The position numbers and the translations under genes are program-made. The notes beneath the pieces are model-generated. The model worked only from the letters and a program-made list of their open reading frames with translations. It did not search any database and was not told where the DNA came from. Positions 3,639-13,960 of a stretch of 64,000 nt of DNA are shown piece by piece (the first letter of the stretch is position 1; each line of letters starts with the position of its first letter). Origin of the DNA: Acetobacteraceae bacterium H6797 (GTDB taxonomy: Bacteria; Pseudomonadota; Alphaproteobacteria; Acetobacterales; Acetobacteraceae); NCBI GenBank assembly GCA_015223225.1, contig JADFCQ010000004.1, forward strand, positions 434,001-498,000. The letters run 5' to 3'.

Positions 3639-3855
3639 GAGTCTGCCCTCCCTGGCGGCGGCCCCAGCGCCGGTTGGCCTCGTTGATGATGGCTTGGCGG
3701 AGCCAGGGATCGGCGATGTCGTCGACCGCGATGGCGGCAACGCCGTGGCGATGCCAGGCGGCGGCGCGCATGGCGTTGAGTTCCGTCTCGGTGGTCGGAC
3801 TGCGCAACCGGCCGAGCGGGCTGCGCGCCAGGGTCGGGGGGCCGAAGTGGCTCAT
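3628..3855 (-). CDS. Small phage protein, 75 aa, unknown
   Basis: This short gene is coupled on both sides: its ATG overlaps the resolvase stop by 4 bp (ATGA at 3852-3855) and its end overlaps the next gene. The middle contains LNAMRAAAWHRHGVAAIAVDDIAD, which looks like a small helical domain. I do not recognise a family. The tight packing is the main evidence that it is real. Confidence 0.55.
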   Translation of the reverse strand: MSHFGPPTLARSPLGRLRSPTTETELNAMRAAAWHRHGVAAIAVDDIADPWLRQAIINEANRRWGRRQGGQTHGR

Positions 3856-4400
3856 GCCTGGCGCCCCTGCTGGTCGGTCGCCCAGAGCAACAGGGCGATG
3901 GCGTCGGCCTCATTGTCGTCGGCCGGGGCAAAGCCGCGGGCCCGCACCGCTGCAATCATCGCCGCCTTATCAGCATTGCCCTTGCCCGTGGCGAAGCGCT
4001 TGATCGTCCCGACCGGGACGCCCTGGTAGGGAATGCCACGCTCTTCGCACCAGGCGGAGAGGTGGGCGAGGAAGCCACCATAGAGGTGCGCGGCGTCCGT
4101 CCCGGCATGGGCCCGCACCTCCTCGAACACGATGCGGGCAAGGCCGTCCGAGAGCCCAGCCACCTCGCCGAGCCAGCCGCGGAAGCGCAGGTAGCGCATG
4201 CCCCCGCCCTCGAACCGGCTGGGGCGGAAGATCATCGTGCCGGAGGTGACGCCACCGTCGCGACCGCTCAGCGCCCAGCCGGTCGTGGTGCCGAGGTCGA
4301 GGGCGAGGACGGCCGGACCGGCAAGACGTGGCCGTGGAGACGCGATCGGGGGCGACTGGCTTGCGTGCAGCACCGGGGTGGGCAGAGTCGTGGCTGCCAT
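3852..4400 (-). CDS. RuvC-like Holliday-junction resolvase (phage type)
   Basis: This 182-aa RNase H-fold nuclease would cut branched recombination or replication intermediates. The first catalytic aspartate is D35 in LALDLGTTTGWA, the second acidic site is E93/E94 in IVFEEV, and the C-terminal pair is E164/D166 in DDNEADAIAL. Length and motif order fit phage RuvC-type resolvases. The ATG at 4400 has a good GGAG 6 bp upstream. It is the first gene after the repeat-rich non-coding block and heads a three-gene coupled set, which suggests its own promoter in that block. Confidence 0.85.
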   Translation of the reverse strand: MAATTLPTPVLHASQSPPIASPRPRLAGPAVLALDLGTTTGWALSGRDGGVTSGTMIFRPSRFEGGGMRYLRFRGWLGEVAGLSDGLARIVFEEVRAHAGTDAAHLYGGFLAHLSAWCEERGIPYQGVPVGTIKRFATGKGNADKAAMIAAVRARGFAPADDNEADAIALLLWATDQQGRQA

Positions 4401-4576
4401 GGTGGTCTCCGAGAGGGGATGATCCTGGTGAGGGCGGCGACGGCGCGGTTCTTGGCGGAGCTCGCCGTCGCTGCCCGGCTATAGGGTGCCGGCCGCTCGG
4501 GCCGGCGGTCCGGTGCCGGGCGGGCCGTGCCTGCCGCCGCACCACCCTGGTCGCCCGATGGGCCGACCCATCCCCT

Positions 4577-4857
4577 GTCCCAACCCGACCCAACCTGTTG
4601 AATGGGTGGGAGCAAGATTGCACAGCAAAATCAGTGGCTTGCGCGAGCGTGTCCCAACGTCCCAACGTCCAACCGCTTCCCATACCCCTATAGGGAAAAT
4701 GTGTGTCCTCCCCATCCCACCCCTTTCGCATTGGGGTTTCAGACCCGTTGGGACGGTTGGGACGTTGGGACAAAAGCTCGGAAACGACTGAATTTGCTGC
4801 CTATTCTTCTGTCCCAACCTCACGGTGCAGGTTGGGACAGAGCCGGGGCGTTGGGAC
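4577..4857. repeat. Iteron-like array of GTTGGGAC in mirrored clusters (candidate origin or operator)
   Basis: The non-coding stretch 4401-4876 contains nine exact copies of GTCCCAAC or its complement GTTGGGAC. Copies in the GTCCCAAC orientation start at 4577, 4651, 4659 and 4811. Copies in the GTTGGGAC orientation start at 4747, 4756, 4764, 4831 and 4850. A degenerate GTCCAAC lies at 4667. The triplets at 4651-4673 and 4747-4771 face each other as a long inverted repeat around a 73-bp centre that is AT-richer and includes CCCTATAGGG. The array sits just past the end of the primase-helicase gene and upstream of the resolvase. It fits initiator-binding iterons or a clustered operator; which one is inference. 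Confidence 0.75.
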
Positions 4858-4876
4858 AGGATCACGGCGGGACGCG

Positions 4877-7510
4877 TCATGACCGGTTCCCCGGCTGCGG
4901 CGCCCGGTAGCGCCATTCCCGCGCGGCGCCGTCCCTGGCCGAGCCGCTGGTCTTGTACCGCTCCCATTTCCGGCTCTTCAGGAAGGACGAGACGCGCATC
5001 TGGTCGGCGCGATTCCACTTCGCCGGCTCGATGCCGAGCGCCTGCTCCAGCACCTCACCGATGGAGACATCGGTGAGCGGTGTCCGCCGCGGGACGTACT
5101 GGTCCTGCCAGTCCTCGTAGCTACCGGAGCCCATGTTCACGCTGCGCTTCTCGCAGGCGAGCCAGCGCTCGATCCGCGCGTCCCAGGCATCGGCTTCGTA
5201 GCGCGCCTCCTGCTCGGCAGTGGCGGCCGCGACCAGCTCCCGATCCTCGATCCACCACGCCGCCCCGGCCCGGAAACGCGCCACCGCCTCGGCCCAGAGC
5301 TGGTCGCGATCCCGACGCAGGGCCTCGAGGTCGATCTCGCCGCAGCGCAGCGGCCAGAAGCGCCGGTTGCCGGTCTCGTCGCGCAGGTAGGTGTCGGGAT
5401 TCACGCTGCCAGCGAAGACGCACTGCCGCGGCACAGTGACCACGTAGCGCTCATAGGGTGGGCGGTAGCGGTCCGTCGTGCGGGTGAGGAAGGCCTTGAT
5501 GCGCGACACCTCGGCCCGGCCGATGGCGTCGAGCTCCGCCATCTCGATGATCCACACGCCCCGCATCTGCTGCGCCGCGTCCTTCGAGCCGATCTCGGCG
5601 AGCTCGTCGGTGAACCAGGGCTCGGAGGCGAGGACCTTCAGGGCGGTGGATTTCCGGATTCCCTGCGGCCCCTCCAGGATCAGCATGTGGTCGGCCTTGC
5701 AGCCGGGCTGCATGATCCGGGCTACGGCCGAGATCATCCACAGCGACGCCATGGCCCGGTTCAGCCGGGTGTCGGCGGCGCCGAGATAGGTCACGGCCCA
5801 GGCATCGAGCCGTGGCGTTCCGTCCCAGGCCAGGGCGGTCAGGTAGTCGCGCACCGGGTGGACGCGGGTGTTCCGTGCCGCGGCGACCACGCTGCGCCCC
5901 ACCACGGTGGGCGGAACGTTGACCTCGCGCCGCTGCAGCCATTCGGCGCAGCGGATGTCGTCCGCCTCGCCCCAGGGACGAGGAATGGCGGTGTCGGCGG
6001 CATCCCAGGGCAGCGCGCGAGTGACCACGATCTCCTGGGCGAACTCGTCGAAGACTAGCGCGCCGGCCAAGGTCGCGTCGTTCGTCAGCGCGGTCAGCAC
6101 GTTGGCCTCGTTGCGCTCCGGCGTGCCGCCCGCGTCGAGCCGCAGCAACCCCGCCCAGGGCGGCCGGATCGGTGGCTGCCGGAGGTCGCCGGTAGCGTTC
6201 AGGCGCCGCCGTAGCTCGACCAGCTGCTTCTCCAGGATGGAGACGGCGATACCGGTGGCCGTCTTGATCGCGGCCAGCACTTGCCGCTCCGGCAACGGCT
6301 CCAGCCGGGCGGTGACGAGGCGCCCGAGCAGCTCCGACAAGGGCACGAGGTCGGGCGGGTTGGTCAGCGCCGCGGCGGCGGCGACCAGCTCCTGCACCGT
6401 TGTGGGGGCTGGACCCGCCACAGCCTGGCCCCCCGGCTCGGACGGGAGATAGTCGGCAGCGGTGGCCCCCTGCCGCAGGTCGTCATTGAAGTCGTCGCCA
6501 TGCCGTGGCGCGACGATGCTGGAGGGGATGTCGGCCGCGTTCAGCCGGTCCGCCAGTCCGGCCGCCGCCTGCATGCCGGCCTCGCCGGCGTCAGCGAAGA
6601 TGGTGACGTGGGTGGTGCCGGCCGGCCATTGCCAGCGACGCAGGCCATCAGCCGACAGCGCCGCCATGGTGGGCACCCCGAAGATCGCCTGCGCCGAAAG
6701 CGCCGTCTCGATCCCCTCGGCGACGCCGATGTGCCCGTCCCCGGGGAATCGGGCCAGCCGGACGCTGCCGCCGGCGACGGGGCCGAGCATCTTCTTGCCG
6801 GGCGGCGCCTTCCCCGAACCGTCGTCCAGCAGGAAGGTGCGGTGGATGCCGCCGGTGGGTACGCCGGCGCCGTCGCGCACCACGGCCACCATCCCCGCCC
6901 AGCCGCGCCGCGTCTCGAAGTCGGCGAGGTCCGGGTGGAACAGCAGATCGGGGCTGTCCGGCGGCTCCAGCCCGCGGCTCCGCAAATAGGCCTCCGCGGG
7001 CGTGCCGGCCAGCGGCTGGCAGCCCTCCAGGAGGCGGGCAATCTCGCGGCCATGGTCCGGCCTCAGCTCGGGCGCGCGCACGGGCGGCGCCGGCCGATCC
7101 ATGCCGGCCCAGCGGGCGGCTTCCTCGAACAGCCGCGCCTCCGTCAGGCCGGTTGCGTGGTAGATCATGTCGATGGGCCCGGCGCTCTCGCCGGTAGCAT
7201 GGTCAAAGCCCCAACCTGCGAAGCGCCCCTCCAGGTGGAGGACGCAGGATCCCTCGCCGCGCGGCGGGCGGCCCGAGAGATCGGCGCAGCGCAGGGTCTT
7301 CCGGTCGCGCGAGCGGACCGCCTGCGGGAACAGGGTGGGCAGCCAGTCGCGGGCGGTGTCCGCGAGGCGGCGGCGCACCTCGGCGAGGTCGTGGCGCACT
7401 GGCGCCAAGGGGACCTCATTGAGGTCGATCACTACCTCCGGGGAGAAGGCTGTGGCAGTCGCCGGCAGGCCAGCGCCGGCCGGCGGGTGGGGATGCGGTG
7501 CGGCGTTCAT
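4877..7510 (-). CDS. Primase-helicase: Toprim domain plus VapE/VirE-type helicase
   Basis: The 877-aa replication protein has an N-terminal primase-like region (about 30-115), a Toprim fold with EGIETA near residue 264 and DAGEAG near 307, and a C-terminal VapE/D5-like ATPase with Walker A GPQGIRKST near 612 and Walker B WIIEMAEL near 655. Such proteins prime and unwind DNA for phages and integrative elements. The ATG at 7510 overlaps the stop of the upstream RecD-like gene (ATGA). The iteron-like array lies directly beyond its stop codon, consistent with an origin next to its initiator. No frameshift is seen. Confidence 0.88.
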   Translation of the reverse strand: MNAAPHPHPPAGAGLPATATAFSPEVVIDLNEVPLAPVRHDLAEVRRRLADTARDWLPTLFPQAVRSRDRKTLRCADLSGRPPRGEGSCVLHLEGRFAGWGFDHATGESAGPIDMIYHATGLTEARLFEEAARWAGMDRPAPPVRAPELRPDHGREIARLLEGCQPLAGTPAEAYLRSRGLEPPDSPDLLFHPDLADFETRRGWAGMVAVVRDGAGVPTGGIHRTFLLDDGSGKAPPGKKMLGPVAGGSVRLARFPGDGHIGVAEGIETALSAQAIFGVPTMAALSADGLRRWQWPAGTTHVTIFADAGEAGMQAAAGLADRLNAADIPSSIVAPRHGDDFNDDLRQGATAADYLPSEPGGQAVAGPAPTTVQELVAAAAALTNPPDLVPLSELLGRLVTARLEPLPERQVLAAIKTATGIAVSILEKQLVELRRRLNATGDLRQPPIRPPWAGLLRLDAGGTPERNEANVLTALTNDATLAGALVFDEFAQEIVVTRALPWDAADTAIPRPWGEADDIRCAEWLQRREVNVPPTVVGRSVVAAARNTRVHPVRDYLTALAWDGTPRLDAWAVTYLGAADTRLNRAMASLWMISAVARIMQPGCKADHMLILEGPQGIRKSTALKVLASEPWFTDELAEIGSKDAAQQMRGVWIIEMAELDAIGRAEVSRIKAFLTRTTDRYRPPYERYVVTVPRQCVFAGSVNPDTYLRDETGNRRFWPLRCGEIDLEALRRDRDQLWAEAVARFRAGAAWWIEDRELVAAATAEQEARYEADAWDARIERWLACEKRSVNMGSGSYEDWQDQYVPRRTPLTDVSIGEVLEQALGIEPAKWNRADQMRVSSFLKSRKWERYKTSGSARDGAAREWRYRAPQPGNRS

Positions 7511-8829
7511 GCCAGGATCACCAGCCCCTGCTCGGCGCGGGTGATGACCGTGTAGAGCCAGCGGCGCCGGTCCAGCTCCGTCCGGCCAAGGCCGTCATCC
7601 CAGACCACCACATTCTCCCACTGCGAGCCCTGGCTCTTGTGGCCGGTGATGGCCCAGCCGAAACTCGCCTCGGTCAGCCCCTTCTTCAGCTTCCAGTCGC
7701 GGTCGTGCCGCTGCTTGTCGAAGGCCAGATGATCCTCGAAGTGGCCCTTGTAGATCCGCAGCCGGCCACGACTGCCGTCCGCCTGCGGCGGGCCGATGCG
7801 GTTGCCGTCCTCGTCGGTGACCACTGCCGAGAAGTAGTGGCTGGCCTCGTCGACGATGTCCGAGAGGGTCAGGAACATGCCGTTGATCAGGCCAAGGTCG
7901 TTCTGGTTCTTCAGGCAGATGATCTTCTCGTCCGGCCCGGTCGGCAGCCAGCCGCCCTCGAAGCCGGCGGCCCGGCGCATGGCGTTGTTCAGCTGCAGCC
8001 GGGTGGCGTTCATGCCGCAGATCACCTGGCCGCCGCGCAGCGCCTGCTCCGGCGTGACGTCCAGCTTGCGCATCTTCCAGACATGATCGTCGTACCGCCC
8101 GAAGCCGATCGGCTCGCCCTGCCGCGCCATGGTGGCGAGGCGGATGATGGCGCTCTCCGCTTCCTGGCGGTGGATCTCGGTCAGCATGATGTCGGGCGGA
8201 TCCTTGGTGAAGGCGCCCTCGCCCTGGATCGGCGGCAGCTGACCGGGATCACCGAGCACCAGGATTGGCTTACCGAAGCTCATCAGGTCGCGCGCCATCT
8301 CCGCGCCGACCATCGAGACCTCATCCAGCACGATCAGCCTGGCGTGCGCCGCATCGCTCTTGGGGTTGAGCGCGAAGCGCGGTCGCTTCATGTCGGCCAC
8401 AGCCTGTCGCATGGCCTCGATGGTCGCCTCGGCGGTGGTGCGCTCGAAGCCGGAGAGCCGGCGTGCCTCGGCGATGGCGGCCTCGATCTTCTTCTCGGCG
8501 GCTTCGACCTCTTCCTCGGTGGCCTCGATGACGCTGTAGATCAGGCTGTGGATGGTCCGCGCCGGCGTGCCCTTGCGCCGCAGCACCAGGGCTGCCTTGC
8601 CGGTGAAGGTGGCAGTGACGACGCCAGGCACGCAGGCCTCTCCATCCTCGCTGCCGCGCTGATGCTCGAGGCCAAGCTCTTCGAGTGCGAAGCGCAGCAC
8701 CGTGGACTTGCCCGTCCCGGCATAGCCGAACAGGCGGAACACCTGCTGCTGCTCGGTATCGTTCTGGTACCAGCGCTTGATCGCCGCGATGGCGCGGTGT
8801 TGGGTGTCGGAGGGCGTGATGTCGCTCAT
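7507..8829 (-). CDS. RecD2/Dda-like SF1B DNA helicase
   Basis: The 440-aa ATPase carries Walker A GYAGTGKST (about 33-41), motif II DEVSM near 170, GDPGQLPPI, and the C-terminal UvrD_C_2-type signature AITGHKSQG followed by YTVITRA. SF1B enzymes move 5' to 3' and assist phage replication and recombination. The start is set at the MSDITPSD methionine (8829), because it gives an ATGA overlap with the upstream gene and has GGAGAGG in front; an upstream in-frame methionine would lie deep inside that gene. Confidence 0.9.
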   Translation of the reverse strand: MSDITPSDTQHRAIAAIKRWYQNDTEQQQVFRLFGYAGTGKSTVLRFALEELGLEHQRGSEDGEACVPGVVTATFTGKAALVLRRKGTPARTIHSLIYSVIEATEEEVEAAEKKIEAAIAEARRLSGFERTTAEATIEAMRQAVADMKRPRFALNPKSDAAHARLIVLDEVSMVGAEMARDLMSFGKPILVLGDPGQLPPIQGEGAFTKDPPDIMLTEIHRQEAESAIIRLATMARQGEPIGFGRYDDHVWKMRKLDVTPEQALRGGQVICGMNATRLQLNNAMRRAAGFEGGWLPTGPDEKIICLKNQNDLGLINGMFLTLSDIVDEASHYFSAVVTDEDGNRIGPPQADGSRGRLRIYKGHFEDHLAFDKQRHDRDWKLKKGLTEASFGWAITGHKSQGSQWENVVVWDDGLGRTELDRRRWLYTVITRAEQGLVILA

Positions 8830-9602
8830 GCAGCCTCTCCGAACTGGACCTGGTAGTCCTTCACCACGCCACCGCACGACGCGTCGCCGACCTGGCATTC
8901 GCGGACGAACACGCGCCGGCCGTCACCGAGTTGGCGCCAGTGGCCACGCCGGATGTGCCAGCGCGGAGAGGCGTGCGTGCCACCGCGACGAACAAGCGCG
9001 GCAGCGATCATCGCAGGCTGGATATCCGCGACCCGGTAGGTCCACCCCCGCACCCCCAGTTTGGCGAGCGGCGTCCGGCGGAGCCGGGAGACGGTGTGCT
9101 CGCCGAATGGAGTGTCGGCCGACAGCAGGCCAAGCGCGCGCCAGACGATGGAGGTGGCCGCCTCGAAGTAGGGAAGGTGATGGTCCGGCTCGCGGAACTC
9201 GGGATGGCCTGTGGCCTCGGCGACCCCATCTGGACGAAAGGAGGTGTGGACGAGCACGTCGGTCCACGCCTTGCGTGTGGCGTCGAACCGAAACAGGAAG
9301 CTCTGCACGCCGGCCTCGGTTGCGCGTGTGTAGGCCGCAAGGCAGCCACCGCGATGCAGCTGCTCGGCCACTTCGAAGATGACGTGGTCGTGGGGGAGCT
9401 TCAGTTGGCCTGCCAGATTTCTGACCGAGAGCCTTTCGACGTCATCGCCATCGAAGCGGACCTGGTCGGGGAAGACGTAGATCGGCGCTGCAAGTGCGCC
9501 AGCGACATCGATCGGACACCAGAATCGGTGCGCATGCCGCGCGATGTGACGCTTGAGCGTGTAGGCGTGAGGAATGGCGCCGGGCGCCTTCGCAGAGGTC
9601 AC
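8826..9602 (-). CDS. Phage protein of unknown function with a C-terminal HxRRGHWR motif (possible AcrVA2-like fold)
   Basis: The 258-aa protein has no catalytic motif that I recognise. Its C terminus has THASPRWHIRRGHWRQL, then a Gly-Arg turn, then VFVRECQVGD. This pattern recurs in a broad set of phage and plasmid proteins. As I recall, relatives of the anti-Cas12a protein AcrVA2 share such an end, so an AcrVA2-like assignment is possible but rests on memory of one motif. The gene overlaps both neighbours by 4 bp within the replication and recombination operon, between the Cas4-like nuclease and the RecD-like helicase. Confidence 0.6.
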   Translation of the reverse strand: MTSAKAPGAIPHAYTLKRHIARHAHRFWCPIDVAGALAAPIYVFPDQVRFDGDDVERLSVRNLAGQLKLPHDHVIFEVAEQLHRGGCLAAYTRATEAGVQSFLFRFDATRKAWTDVLVHTSFRPDGVAEATGHPEFREPDHHLPYFEAATSIVWRALGLLSADTPFGEHTVSRLRRTPLAKLGVRGWTYRVADIQPAMIAAALVRRGGTHASPRWHIRRGHWRQLGDGRRVFVRECQVGDASCGGVVKDYQVQFGEAA

Positions 9603-10372
9603 GGCGAATTCTCCCAGCAGCGGATGGCGTAGGGACAGAAGCGGCAGAGGTGAAAGTCGGGGTGGACGGCGATACGCGGCGGCAGTTCGCCGGCCTCGGC
9701 CGCGCGCAGGATGTCGACGGCCCGATCCGAGAGGCGCTGCGCCTCCTCCGGCTCGAAAGGCACCGCCTCATGGTGCAGCGCCAGAGTGTCGCGGTTGAGC
9801 GCGGTGAACAGCGCCACCTCGAGTTCGAGGTAGGCCATGTAGAGCTGCACCTGGGCGAAGTAGACCGGCTTCGAGAGGCGCACACCGCGCTTGACCAGGT
9901 CGGCCCAGGACTTCTGCCCGAGGGCCTTGTGCTCCCAGAGGGCGGGCCAACGGAGGCCGACCTCCGGGCCGGCGACGATCACCCCGTCGACGTGGCCGCG
10001 CAGCCGGCCGCCCGCGGCGGCGAAACCGAACTGCTCGCCATCGGCGCCGCGGTCGCGCAGATCGAAGCCAGCCTGGCGCAGCCAACGGATGGTCAGTGCC
10101 TCAAACTGGTGGCCAGCGTCGAACACGCGCAGGATACCAGCATCGAAGTCGCGGTCGGGATCCTTCGGCGCGTGGGTGACCTCGTAGACCAGCTTCCGCT
10201 CGCAGGCCTCACCGACGCGGCTGCCACCAAGATAGTCGCGTGGGCGCTGCCGGCGGTTGCGCGCCACCAGGGCGGCATCCACGAAGGCGTTCACCCGCGC
10301 CGTGGTGTCCGCGATGGTCGGCGCTTCCCGGCCGTAGATGAGGCCAGAGCCGTGGTTGAGGTCGAGCGGCAC
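9599..10372 (-). CDS. Cas4-like PD-(D/E)XK exonuclease with Fe-S cysteines
   Basis: The 257-aa nuclease combines a PD-(D/E)XK core (HVDG, then WEHKAL giving the ExK pair) with four cysteines placed as in Cas4 and AddB: C57 near the N terminus, and C243, C246 and C252 in a CxxCx5C tail. These should hold an iron-sulfur cluster. In phages such enzymes process DNA ends for recombination. No CRISPR array or other cas gene is present, so this is a phage recombination nuclease rather than an adaptation protein. It is 8 bp from the upstream gene and overlaps the next by 4 bp. Confidence 0.85.
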   Translation of the reverse strand: MPLDLNHGSGLIYGREAPTIADTTARVNAFVDAALVARNRRQRPRDYLGGSRVGEACERKLVYEVTHAPKDPDRDFDAGILRVFDAGHQFEALTIRWLRQAGFDLRDRGADGEQFGFAAAGGRLRGHVDGVIVAGPEVGLRWPALWEHKALGQKSWADLVKRGVRLSKPVYFAQVQLYMAYLELEVALFTALNRDTLALHHEAVPFEPEEAQRLSDRAVDILRAAEAGELPPRIAVHPDFHLCRFCPYAIRCWENSP

Positions 10373-10380
10373 GGACGTCC

Positions 10381-10839
10381 TCAGAAGGGAATTGGGTCCG
10401 ACATCGGGTCGAGCGCCGCGGCCTGACGACGCATCGAAGCCTGGAAGCCATCGACGCAGGCCTCGATGATGCGGTCGATCTCGGCCGCGCTGCGGTCATG
10501 GAAGGGCGCCATCAGCCCGAGCTCGACCAGCACCTCGGCGAGCGAGCGGCGGGCGTCCTTGATCGCCTCGGCCTCCATCGGCGTCTTGTCGATCATGCCG
10601 GCGCTCCGCTGCGCCAGCGCGCCGCCCGCCTCGCAGCAGGCCATCGAGCAGAAGTGGTGGCTCGGGAACTCGCCCCAGCGGAGCTGATGCGTGTAGCCGA
10701 AGCCCTTCGCCTCGCGACCGCACAGGGCGCAGACCAGACGGCGGACCTGGTCCTCCGGCGAGCAGCCAGGGGGCGGCGGAGGCCGGGCCGCATCGGGGCG
10801 GGAGCGCGCCGTGCGCCCCGCCCAGCGTCGGCGTGCCAT
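10381..10839 (-). CDS. Zinc-binding phage protein, DUF6511-like
   Basis: The protein is about 152 aa. A zinc-finger-like segment reads CALCGREAKGFGY followed about 20 residues later by HHFCSMACCE, giving two CxxC-type pairs; this resembles DUF6511 proteins of alphaproteobacterial phages. A helical C-terminal region follows. The ATG at 10839 lies 10 bp after the stop of the upstream ssDNA-binding gene; a GTG at 10845 is the alternative. A role in the replication complex is inferred only from its place in the operon. Confidence 0.65.
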   Translation of the reverse strand: MARRRWAGRTARSRPDAARPPPPPGCSPEDQVRRLVCALCGREAKGFGYTHQLRWGEFPSHHFCSMACCEAGGALAQRSAGMIDKTPMEAEAIKDARRSLAEVLVELGLMAPFHDRSAAEIDRIIEACVDGFQASMRRQAAALDPMSDPIPF

Positions 10840-10849
10840 GCCCACCGCA

Positions 10850-11581
10850 TCAGCCGTTCAGCCAGGCCGGGCTGGTGGCCGTCGGCGCAGCGGCAGGCTG
10901 CGGCGCGGGCTGGGCGGGGGTGGCCGCGGCCGGGCGCTCCCAAGAGCGGGATGCCGCCGGGGCGGACGCGGCAGGCGCCCAGGCCGGGGCCGCGGCCGCA
11001 GGCAGCGCGGCGGGCCGAGCCGCCCGGGTGCTGGGCTGCGCCGGTACGGCCTCGCCGGCCATGATCTGGCGGTATTCCGGCTCGCCCGGCAGCACGACCC
11101 GGTCGAGCCGGTTGCTGTCGCCGTAGCGTGAGTCGCTCGCCGGCTCGACCCGGACCTTCGCGGCGAAGGTGATGCCGGAGAGATCGGCGAGCCCGCGCAG
11201 CACCCGCTTGCCCCTGGCCGCCTCCGACATGTCCTGCGGGTCGAGGCCAAGGGCGCTGTCGATCATCGCCCGGAAGGTCCCCTTCGAGATCTTCCATCCG
11301 ATCGAAATGCCGTGCTCGTCCACCTTGCCCCCGGCGACGGTGAACATCTGCCAGAACTTGCGGCGGATGTGCGGGCCAGCGGTGACGGTGAACTCGCAGT
11401 CGAGCATGCGGACATCGCTGCCGGGGGTCTTCGCCGCCTTCAGCAGGCTACGGTCCACTTCGCCCTGGCCGTCCAGCCCGCCGGGGCGGATGGTCATGGT
11501 GACCTTGACGAAGCTGCCGTCCGGGATCAGGTCGGAGCTGCGCGGCAGTTCGGCGTCGTTCATGTCGTACATCGGGTTCAC
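10850..11581 (-). CDS. DUF669-like phage single-strand DNA-binding protein
   Basis: The 243-aa protein has an OB-fold-like N-terminal part, with alternating strands (FVKVTMTIRPGG, RMLDCEFTVTAGPHIRRKFWQMFTV) typical of DUF669 phage proteins. The tail (about 185-243) is low-complexity Ala/Pro and ends in a short hydrophobic tip, as in SSB-type proteins. It uses a GTG start at 11581 that overlaps the stop of the RecA-fold ATPase (GTGA), so the two are translationally coupled. Neighbours that bind, cut and unwind DNA support the call. Confidence 0.65.
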   Translation of the reverse strand: MNPMYDMNDAELPRSSDLIPDGSFVKVTMTIRPGGLDGQGEVDRSLLKAAKTPGSDVRMLDCEFTVTAGPHIRRKFWQMFTVAGGKVDEHGISIGWKISKGTFRAMIDSALGLDPQDMSEAARGKRVLRGLADLSGITFAAKVRVEPASDSRYGDSNRLDRVVLPGEPEYRQIMAGEAVPAQPSTRAARPAALPAAAAPAWAPAASAPAASRSWERPAAATPAQPAPQPAAAPTATSPAWLNG

Positions 11582-12417
11582 CCCTGGCTGGTGCGGGTCG
11601 CGTTGATTTTGCGGAGGAGGGCGGCGAGGTCGGGCGGCTCGGTCTCGTCGAGGCGGCCGGAGCGATCCTTGGCAGGCAAGCCGAAGGCGTTGCCGGCGCG
11701 GCAGACCAGGCGGCGTTCCGTGCCGCGCTCGGGATCGTGCCGCCAGCCGTCGCCCTCGCGCGCGAACAGCGACATCGACACCACCTGGTCGACGATGCCG
11801 GGCAGCTCCCGGGCGGCCTTGCCGCCTTCCATCTGGGGCTGCCAGGTGACCTTGCCGAAGTCGTCGGTGACGCGTTCCAGGATGCCGACCATGATCACGG
11901 TTTTGCCCGGGGCGTGCTGCAGATGCTTCAGCAGGCCGATCACCTCGCGCGCCATCAGCCCATAGGCGCCGCGGGTGTCCGGCTTGCCGGTCTTCTCCGA
12001 GAAAGCCTCGGGCCGGGTCTTGGCCCAGGCCATCGCCTGGCGCGTCAGGTCGGTGATGCTGTCGAGGAAGACGATCGACTTCGCGGCGAGCAGCCGCACC
12101 AGGTCCGGGTGAGTCGTAGCGAGATGCTGGTAATGCGCCTCAGAGAAAACGCCGTTCGGGTCGGCCGCCGGGTTCACCCCGCCGATCAGGCAGGCAATGT
12201 CGATCGCGTCGTCGAAGCAACGCACCGGGATGCTGTCGCCGCGCCAGTCCTGCACCGATTTGAGACCGGCCTCGAGATCGATGCAGATGGCTTCCGCCGC
12301 CGGCAGGGTGACCAGCTGCGCGGTCTTGCCGACGCCGGTCGGGCCGAACAGCGCCACCGTGGTCTTGTTGGCCGCGCGAGAGAGCCGCTCATCGGCCGTG
12401 ACGATGCGCAGCACCAT
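11578..12417 (-). CDS. RecA-fold ATPase, Sak4-like phage recombination protein
   Basis: The 279-aa P-loop protein has Walker A GPTGVGKT at residues 25-32 and Walker B IVFLDSITDL near 114-123. It belongs to the phage AAA/RecA-core proteins often called Sak4 or nucleotide-binding protein, thought to promote strand annealing with a dedicated SSB. The immediately following, overlapping gene is the DUF669-like ssDNA-binding protein, the usual partner. Its ATG overlaps the upstream stop (ATGA at 12416-12419). Confidence 0.8.
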   Translation of the reverse strand: MVLRIVTADERLSRAANKTTVALFGPTGVGKTAQLVTLPAAEAICIDLEAGLKSVQDWRGDSIPVRCFDDAIDIACLIGGVNPAADPNGVFSEAHYQHLATTHPDLVRLLAAKSIVFLDSITDLTRQAMAWAKTRPEAFSEKTGKPDTRGAYGLMAREVIGLLKHLQHAPGKTVIMVGILERVTDDFGKVTWQPQMEGGKAARELPGIVDQVVSMSLFAREGDGWRHDPERGTERRLVCRAGNAFGLPAKDRSGRLDETEPPDLAALLRKINATRTSQG

Positions 12418-13282: not shown

Positions 13283-13855
13283 TCAGGCGACCGAGGGGAT
13301 GCCGGCGGCGAGCAAACGCAGCCGCAGTTCACGGAGTCGGCGGTAGATCCGCGCGCGCGGCATGGTCTTCTGCTCGCCGAACTCGTGCGGCGTATGCACG
13401 CTGAGCGCAGCACAGAGCGCGTGGTCTTCAGGATCGATGGCGGCCGCCGCGCGCTCCAGGCCGAGGCGACGCTCCAGCCCGGCAATGGCGTCGGTCGGCT
13501 GCCCGCACCAGGCGGTGTAGCCGTCTGCCTCGCCGATGGTGTCGCCGAGCGTCAGGCCGTCGCTGCCGGGCAGAACATCGTCGAGGGAGAGAGGATGGCG
13601 GTTGGCGCGCTCACGCTGCACGCGGTGGGCGATCCGCGCCGCCGCGTGGCGGAAGCAGACCCTCGCGAACGCCTCGAGTGCCCCCTTCGCCGGATTGAAG
13701 GCGGGCAGACGCGCCAGGAAGTCGGCCAGCAGGTCCTGGCGCAGGTCCTCACGTTCCTGGGCGGGAAGGCCCAGGTTGCGGCAGAGGCGCCGCGCCTCCT
13801 GCTCCGCAAGGCTGTGGATGGAGGCAAGGTCGGGGAAGCAGGGCGAGCGAGCCAT
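13283..13855 (-). CDS. Sigma-70-like (ECF-type) factor of the phage region
   Basis: The protein is about 190 aa (209 if started at 13912). Its first half matches sigma region 2: AEQEARRLCRNLGL, then EREDLRQDLLADFLARLPAFNPAKGALEAF, then a helix with FRHAAARIAHRVQRERANRHPLSLD. The C-terminal half has a helix-turn-helix-like stretch (HEFGEQKTMPRARIYRRLRELR) instead of a textbook region 4. It may act as a phage transcription switch; a plain DNA-binding regulator is the alternative. An inverted repeat at 13855-13898 ends exactly on the internal ATG. Confidence 0.62.
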   Translation of the reverse strand: MARSPCFPDLASIHSLAEQEARRLCRNLGLPAQEREDLRQDLLADFLARLPAFNPAKGALEAFARVCFRHAAARIAHRVQRERANRHPLSLDDVLPGSDGLTLGDTIGEADGYTAWCGQPTDAIAGLERRLGLERAAAAIDPEDHALCAALSVHTPHEFGEQKTMPRARIYRRLRELRLRLLAAGIPSVA

Positions 13856-13898
13856 CGGCAGGTCGGTCCATCGGGTTGTGATGGAGCCAACCTGCCGA
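13855..13898 (-). promoter_or_regulatory. Inverted repeat at the start of the sigma-like gene
   Basis: TCGGCAGGT at 13855-13863 pairs with ACCTGCCGA at 13890-13898, with a 26-bp loop and extra matching bases inside the arms. If translation starts at 13855, the RNA hairpin ends on the start codon and could control its access; as DNA it could be an operator. If the gene starts at 13912 the repeat is simply coding. Confidence 0.35.
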
Positions 13899-13960
13899 CC
13901 CTCGCGGCACACGGGTGTGGGCGCGGCGTGTGCTCGGCGTGGGTCCGGGGCGCGAGCCGG

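Follow-up and report, generated by a model that had tools for sequence, protein, structure and literature searches.

A mirrored array of repeated words between primase and resolvase genes

The window analysed here is a stretch of 64,000 nucleotides from contig JADFCQ010000004.1 of Acetobacteraceae bacterium H6797, and it carries a prophage in which an array of short repeats lies between the stop of a VapE/Toprim primase gene (4877–7510, minus strand) and the RuvC-like resolvase gene at 3852–4400 (minus strand), which has its start on the array side. The word GTTGGGAC occurs nine times in this 64-kb window, five times on the plus strand and four times on the minus strand, and every copy falls within the 281 bp from 4577 to 4857. 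Three exact plus-strand iterons (4747–4754, 4756–4763 and 4764–4771) form an inner right triplet, which faces an inner left group with two exact copies in reverse orientation on the minus strand (4651–4658 and 4659–4666). Between these inner groups is an AT-richer centre of ~80 bp (4667–4746, no strand), a candidate unwinding element that holds CCCTATAGGG at 4686–4695. The remaining exact copies are an outer iteron at 4577–4584 (reverse, minus strand), with a one-mismatch neighbour beside it, one at 4811–4818 (reverse, minus strand), and two on the plus strand at 4831–4838 and 4850–4857. Altogether there are about 11 sites, and since their mirrored order recurs in relatives (see below), the two triplets form the core of a more extensive arrangement. 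The GC content of the array is 50–60%, compared with 68–83% across most of the flanking DNA.

The commonest 8-mer reached at most four copies in 5000 dinucleotide shuffles of positions 4401–4876, compared with the nine observed; shuffling the whole window gave a mean of 1.6 copies of GTTGGGAC, and elsewhere in the window 476-bp stretches have no 8-mer in more than four copies. Across the 4.84-Mb genome, paired copies of GTTGGGAC are found solely at this array. The original prediction, made from the letters alone, had described nine exact copies of an 8-bp word in 281 bp of non-coding DNA between the primase and resolvase genes, an AT-richer centre holding a named sequence, and a chance origin as very unlikely, all of which holds; its two facing triplets stand on the right, where all three copies are exact, and only in part on the left, where the third member, GTCCAAC at 4667, matches the word imperfectly and counts as a near copy. 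An Rfam search at the array gave no RNA family match, which leaves an RNA element without support except for the inverted order of the words, and a literature search by GTTGGGAC itself returned unrelated sequence matches only.

Equivalent arrays with different words in relatives

Loci of relatives were taken from viral contigs and bacterial genomes, with similarity of the primase protein as the sole criterion, and 157 of them have a complete primase end; the nearest primases are those of Siccirubricoccus soli (97%) and Pseudoroseomonas rhizosphaerae (95%). The original prediction had made its case depend on the repeats accompanying the same replication gene in related elements. Many relatives lack GTTGGGAC, because equivalent arrays there use a different word, which emerged when the most frequent word of each locus was determined de novo. 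In 145 of the 157 loci there is an array of five or more copies (5–11 copies of a short word, a short distance upstream of ruvC), and the rest mostly have weak arrays or little DNA past the primase gene. Words across the lineages include GTTGGGAC, GTGGGACA, GGTTGGAC, GGTAGGAC, GTTGGTGAC, GTGGTGAC, GTGGTGCA, GTGGGAAC and TGGGTCC, among others. Each array is built from one word, and lineages differ in all copies together. A reading of the word as an invariant mark of the family was rejected, close relatives having other words.

Along the direction of transcription the sites follow approximately the order << > <<< centre >> < >>, and both order and spacing are kept across word classes. The centre has a median length of 82 bp and, in 85 relatives, an AT content of 40–58% in 20-bp bins that peaks in mid-centre, compared with a locus mean of 34%. 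From the end of the array to the ruvC match the median distance in relatives is 155 bp, and the distance from the primase stop to the array ranges from overlap up to 5.5 kb. The array centres of Acetobacteraceae relatives (L127, L137, L144, L152 and others; L numbers denote individual loci), like the window at 4686–4695, hold a conserved TTTTCCTATA(C/G)GGG-like stretch, which could be an unwinding or promoter element.

The word covaries with residues in the primase C-terminus

The primase-helicase, our proposed initiator, has a Toprim_3 domain, a VapE AAA+ domain and a C-terminal winged helix. Pfam matches are VapE-like_dom (E 1.1e-84), Toprim_3 and DUF7146, with DUF5906 below threshold; a profile search matches the solved structure of PriRep1 (7PDS; E 6e-63), and Foldseek finds the same structure with the full primase model (E 1.9e-24). 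AlphaFold2 models of the C-terminus are winged-helix-like, with a helix at residues 834–846 and wing strands at 850–853 and 866–869. From these models and the column scan described below, the putative winged-helix part comprises amino acids 814–877 (4880–5071, minus strand) and includes R834, S841 and K853; judging by their spacing, residues 834 and 841 would share a face of the helix, with 853 placed in the wing.

We defined word classes from the DNA alone for 106 non-redundant loci, and tested 2004 alignable columns of five proteins (primase, RuvC, Dda, Cas4 and Sak4) as predictors. Arginine versus lysine at 834 separates GTTGG from GTGG words in 92 of 93 non-redundant loci, with a leave-one-out score of 0.989 that is the best of all columns, and residue 841 (S/T/A or G) comes second at 0.925; the best columns of RuvC, Dda, Cas4 and Sak4 score 0.69–0.73, against a baseline of 0.58. 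Glutamine versus lysine or arginine at 853 separates GGTGAC from GG(G)AC words in all 102 of 102 loci. Because two features were scanned over about 2000 columns, a tree-based test carries more weight than the raw scores. On a tree built from primase residues 66–800, with the C-terminal domain left out, the GTTGG/GTGG feature changed at least 25 times and the GGTGAC/GG(G)AC feature at least 10 times. Independent pairs on supported branches favour the association by 19:0 for residue 834 (one pair lacks a difference; p = 3.8e-6) and by 9:0 for residue 853 (p = 0.004). Among matched closest pairs, residue 834 differs in 97% of those with different words and 3% of those with the same word, and residue 853 in 100% and 12% respectively. 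The word thus follows residues of the C-terminal winged helix, and this covariation is strong support for the primase C-terminus as the probable reader of the array.

An alternative explanation for the correlation is that the primase C-terminus and the array are swapped jointly by recombination, with no contact between them, and in half of the loci no more than about 80 bp do separate the primase stop from the beginning of the array. However, where the gap between gene and array exceeds 700 bp (0.7–5.5 kb) the rule is kept in 32 of 32 loci for residue 834 and 35 of 35 for residue 853, so that co-inheritance of neighbours does not explain it. Linked inheritance also sits poorly with RuvC, which flanks the array opposite the primase, being a poor predictor of the GTTGG/GTGG feature (0.685 at best), with primase residues closer to the array than 834 and 841 being worse predictors, and with the recurrence of the same residues in divergent families, and we regard it as very unlikely.

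The primases of L161 and L166 agree at 713 of 735 body residues (97%) and have an identical recognition helix, with R and Q respectively at 853 together with further wing differences; their words are GTGGGACA and GTGGTGACA. A third locus with the same recognition helix, L165, has the word GTGGTGCA, and the residues of the three differ from 853 onward, which suggests the wing as the reader of the word's right end. The L261 primase, 94% identical to that of the window, has K834, G841 and the word GTGGGACA. The L261 record is labelled as a Microbispora metagenome-assembled genome and, carrying a primase this close to that of an Acetobacteraceae prophage, is probably a misbinned contig.

Searches starting from the word

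In a converse approach, viral contigs were searched by word, the nearby VapE gene was read and duplicates were removed; many of the resulting loci overlap the set found by primase similarity. Because a scan for two copies must include chance pairs, only arrays of at least 4–5 copies were used afterwards. Reading residues 834, 841 and 853 in order, GTTGGGAC arrays are accompanied by R, S/T/A and K/R in 19 of 23 instances (one more has R, G, R), GTGGTGAC arrays by K, G and Q in five of five, and GTGGGACA arrays by K, G and K/R in seven of eight; GTTGGTGAC arrays go with R and Q in 15 of 15. The informative cases are divergent VapE proteins, of which L017, L231, L240, L100 and L256 have R, S/A and R with GTTGGGAC, and L385 has K, G and Q with GTGGTGAC. 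Among named records inspected by eye, K, G and R go with GTGGGACA in Pseudomonas phage vB_Pae_U5 (38% identity), and R, S and K with GTTGGGGC in the Roseomonas plasmid p1318-5.

Eight loci found by word have no VapE match and were left aside. One (L041) encodes a PriCT_2/AAA_25 protein instead, and the other seven (L013, L061, L077, L056, L080, L065 and L006) have no replication gene among the scanned proteins. In L006, nine perfect tandem copies of GTTGGGACC are present at the contig end (13736–13816), with no VapE in the sequence available. In L042 the repeats are scattered over 2.6 kb and do not resemble an array.

Arrays on VapE plasmids

Arrays also accompany VapE genes on plasmids. The 4.3-kb plasmid pGO128, with five annotated genes, encodes a VapE protein, and after its gene come repeats arranged around an AT-rich stretch; on pKNA06, p1318-5 and p1318-6 the arrays come directly after vapE. 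Two of these plasmids, p1318-5 (L778) and p1318-6 (L779), are from one Roseomonas strain and have related VapE genes with different words, GTTGGGGC and GTGGGCAC respectively, as expected if co-resident replicons must differ.

Short repeated words are common among phage cis-sites, and pKNA06 carries ParA proteins, which would be in keeping with the repeats having no relation to the primase and serving a host protein, or partition, packaging or recombination. Against this, the word tracks the winged-helix residues of the primase through at least 25 switches, and there is no second cluster in the host genome; we give this explanation the least credence of all and consider it hardly tenable.

A proposed origin read by the primase winged helix

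We conclude that the array is very likely the replication origin of a temperate phage, with the adjoining VapE primase-helicase as its initiator acting through the C-terminal winged helix. An initiator-binding origin beside the VapE primase was also the preference of the original prediction, and it gains support from the arrays in relatives and from the covariation of word and residues. Replication activity is inferred from homology, from architecture and from VapE replicons such as pGO128. In the proposed mechanism, the winged helix (recognition helix at residues 834–846, wing from residue 850) would bind each 8–11 bp word, with residues 834 and 841 matching its left half and residue 853 its right half, as the covariation indicates. 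Several primase-helicase copies would load on the two mirrored halves, possibly as oligomers, the AT-richer ~80-bp centre would be opened by unwinding, and the AAA+ VapE motor and Toprim primase would start replication, probably in both directions.

More tentatively, the helix (834 and 841, left half) and the wing (853, right half) may constitute a portable VapE code, in which the pair of reader and word has been reprogrammed at least 25 times while the architecture of ~11 sites was kept, under selection to differ. The suggested pressure, from co-resident elements, satellites or origin-directed nucleases, is part of the same joint reading, which we consider plausible though not quite probable.

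Several observations weigh against the array being an origin read by the primase. Plasmid pGO128 also encodes an HTH_36 protein that is a possible replication protein (Rep), so VapE is not proven as the Rep of pGO128, and the VapE phages Aval and VarioGold, which we examined, have no clear array. The C-terminal domain alone gives weak fold matches in the PDB (best PriRep1, E 0.24). The feature assigned to residue 853 is also predicted fairly well by some columns outside the winged helix, namely RuvC column 3 (0.979, in 47 loci only), RuvC A137 (0.905) and primase M137 (0.901), because GGTGAC/GG(G)AC changed fewer times. Divergent loci L072, L217 and L219 pair GTTGGGAC with K834, with S841 retained, and L725 and the AGTGGGAC locus L527 break the rule, both aligning weakly to the winged-helix region. 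Finally, in many relatives the array is nearer to ruvC than to the primase gene.

A rival explanation is that the array serves chiefly in transcriptional control of ruvC and the genes behind it, through binding of the primase or of some other phage regulator, and not in starting replication. The array stays upstream of the ruvC match, at a median of 155 bp, also where the primase is kilobases away, and the conserved TTTTCCTATA-like stretch of the array centre would also be in keeping with an operator. However, the covarying reader is a primase-helicase and no classical repressor, about 11 mirrored sites with an AT-richer centre are larger than usual operators, a scan of the region that covers the sigma-70 type only found no sigma-70-like promoter, and the plasmid arrays follow vapE with no ruvC annotated nearby. 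We therefore consider control of transcription unlikely as the main function, although a side role of the repeats as an operator is compatible with the proposed origin, which would then have a dual function.

The surrounding gene module

The order of genes along the minus strand is Sak4, Cas4-like, Dda-like helicase, VapE/Toprim primase, array and RuvC-like resolvase. The last of these, a RuvC-like Holliday-junction resolvase (PHROG 159, E 1.7e-30), is the next gene beyond the array in the direction of transcription. The rest of the replication and recombination module (7507–12417, minus strand; PHROGs 325, 1990 and 124) includes, from a PHROG search, a Dda-like helicase (7507–8898), a Cas4-like exonuclease (9599–10372) and a Sak4-like annealing protein (11578–12417), all on the minus strand. 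At 13283–13912 the phage module encodes a possible sigma-70 region 2-like protein, with a match (E 0.0002) that falls short of the Pfam cut-off.

In many relatives, among them L305 (7038–9701), L315 (6183–7313), L309 (8919–13180), L156 (8608–9540), L282 (10900–11850) and L283 (11714–13921), the DNA between primase and array carries variable cargo, which is often encoded on the opposite strand and includes the defence genes IetS (E 2e-296) and RmrA (E 3e-174), an SbcCD-like pair and a PD-T4-7-like gene. The gap between primase and array is thus a prophage cargo hotspot between the initiator gene and the proposed origin. Phaeospirillum-like loci L180, L184, L186 and L284 have a second array downstream of ruvC, 2.5–3.4 kb past the primase end, with the words GGTAACC and GGTTTCC/TGGAAAC.

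Comparison with known systems

The alpha protein of phage P4 is a primase-helicase whose C-terminal origin-binding domain reads short repeated words, at two separate sites (ori and crr). The locus described here shares the features of iteron origins with self-loading initiators, namely a helicase of the hexameric AAA+/superfamily 3 (SF3) type (by homology), short repeated words near the initiator gene and, from the covariation at 834, 841 and 853, a C-terminal DNA-binding domain that would set word specificity. According to PMC7581432, the Rep of staphylococcal pathogenicity islands (SaPIs) is a self-loading helicase whose C-terminal domain recognises a short-iteron origin directly downstream of its gene (citing Ubeda 2007), and the Cch2 helicase of the staphylococcal cassette chromosome SCCmec has a C-terminal domain that binds repeats downstream of its operon. 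The working principle proposed here is the same as for SaPI Rep/ori and the Cch2 origins (PMC7581432) and for the RepA/ori pairs of PLE satellites, which also covary (PMC8263062). SaPI Reps, however, are DUF927 or Primase_Cterm/D5_N helicases, and Pfam on the window primase gave neither; here the protein is Toprim-VapE, there are about 11 mirrored sites, and the origin follows the gene directly in the window and in half of the loci (within about 80 bp) whereas elsewhere it is up to 5.5 kb away. Cch2 differs in having three short iterons (AAGTG) and belongs to a different helicase family. The closest solved relative of the helicase part is PriRep1 (PDB 7PDS, 'similar to D. nodosus vapE'), whose structure includes double-stranded DNA; it is about 25% identical to the window primase in a structural alignment.

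Literature searches on VapE with iterons or winged helix, which left most subscription journals outside their coverage, found no description of this origin family, and none of the papers searched was found to describe a word code at the level of residues. Phages and mobile elements commonly encode VapE proteins, which still take their name from virulence; a large branch of them can now be tied to a specific putative origin, whose word is predictable from two or three residues in the primase tail in more than 100 relatives. These relatives would provide more than twenty natural replays of a switch in initiator-origin specificity, and would allow a direct test of why close relatives differ in their iterons, a question that geminiviruses (PMC12548392) and phage satellites (PMC8263062) pose as well. 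In geminivirus Rep iterons the repeat positions are likewise kept and the word varies among close relatives (PMC12548392), although Rep acts in rolling-circle replication and is unrelated to the VapE primase. In the PLE satellites of Vibrio cholerae, the DNA-binding domain of RepA and its origin covary and specificity has been swapped several times (PMC8263062); there the initiator is of the RepA_N type, the iterons are semi-palindromic and ~30 bp long, and covariation is between two types at the level of the domain, whereas here it is seen at the level of single residues.
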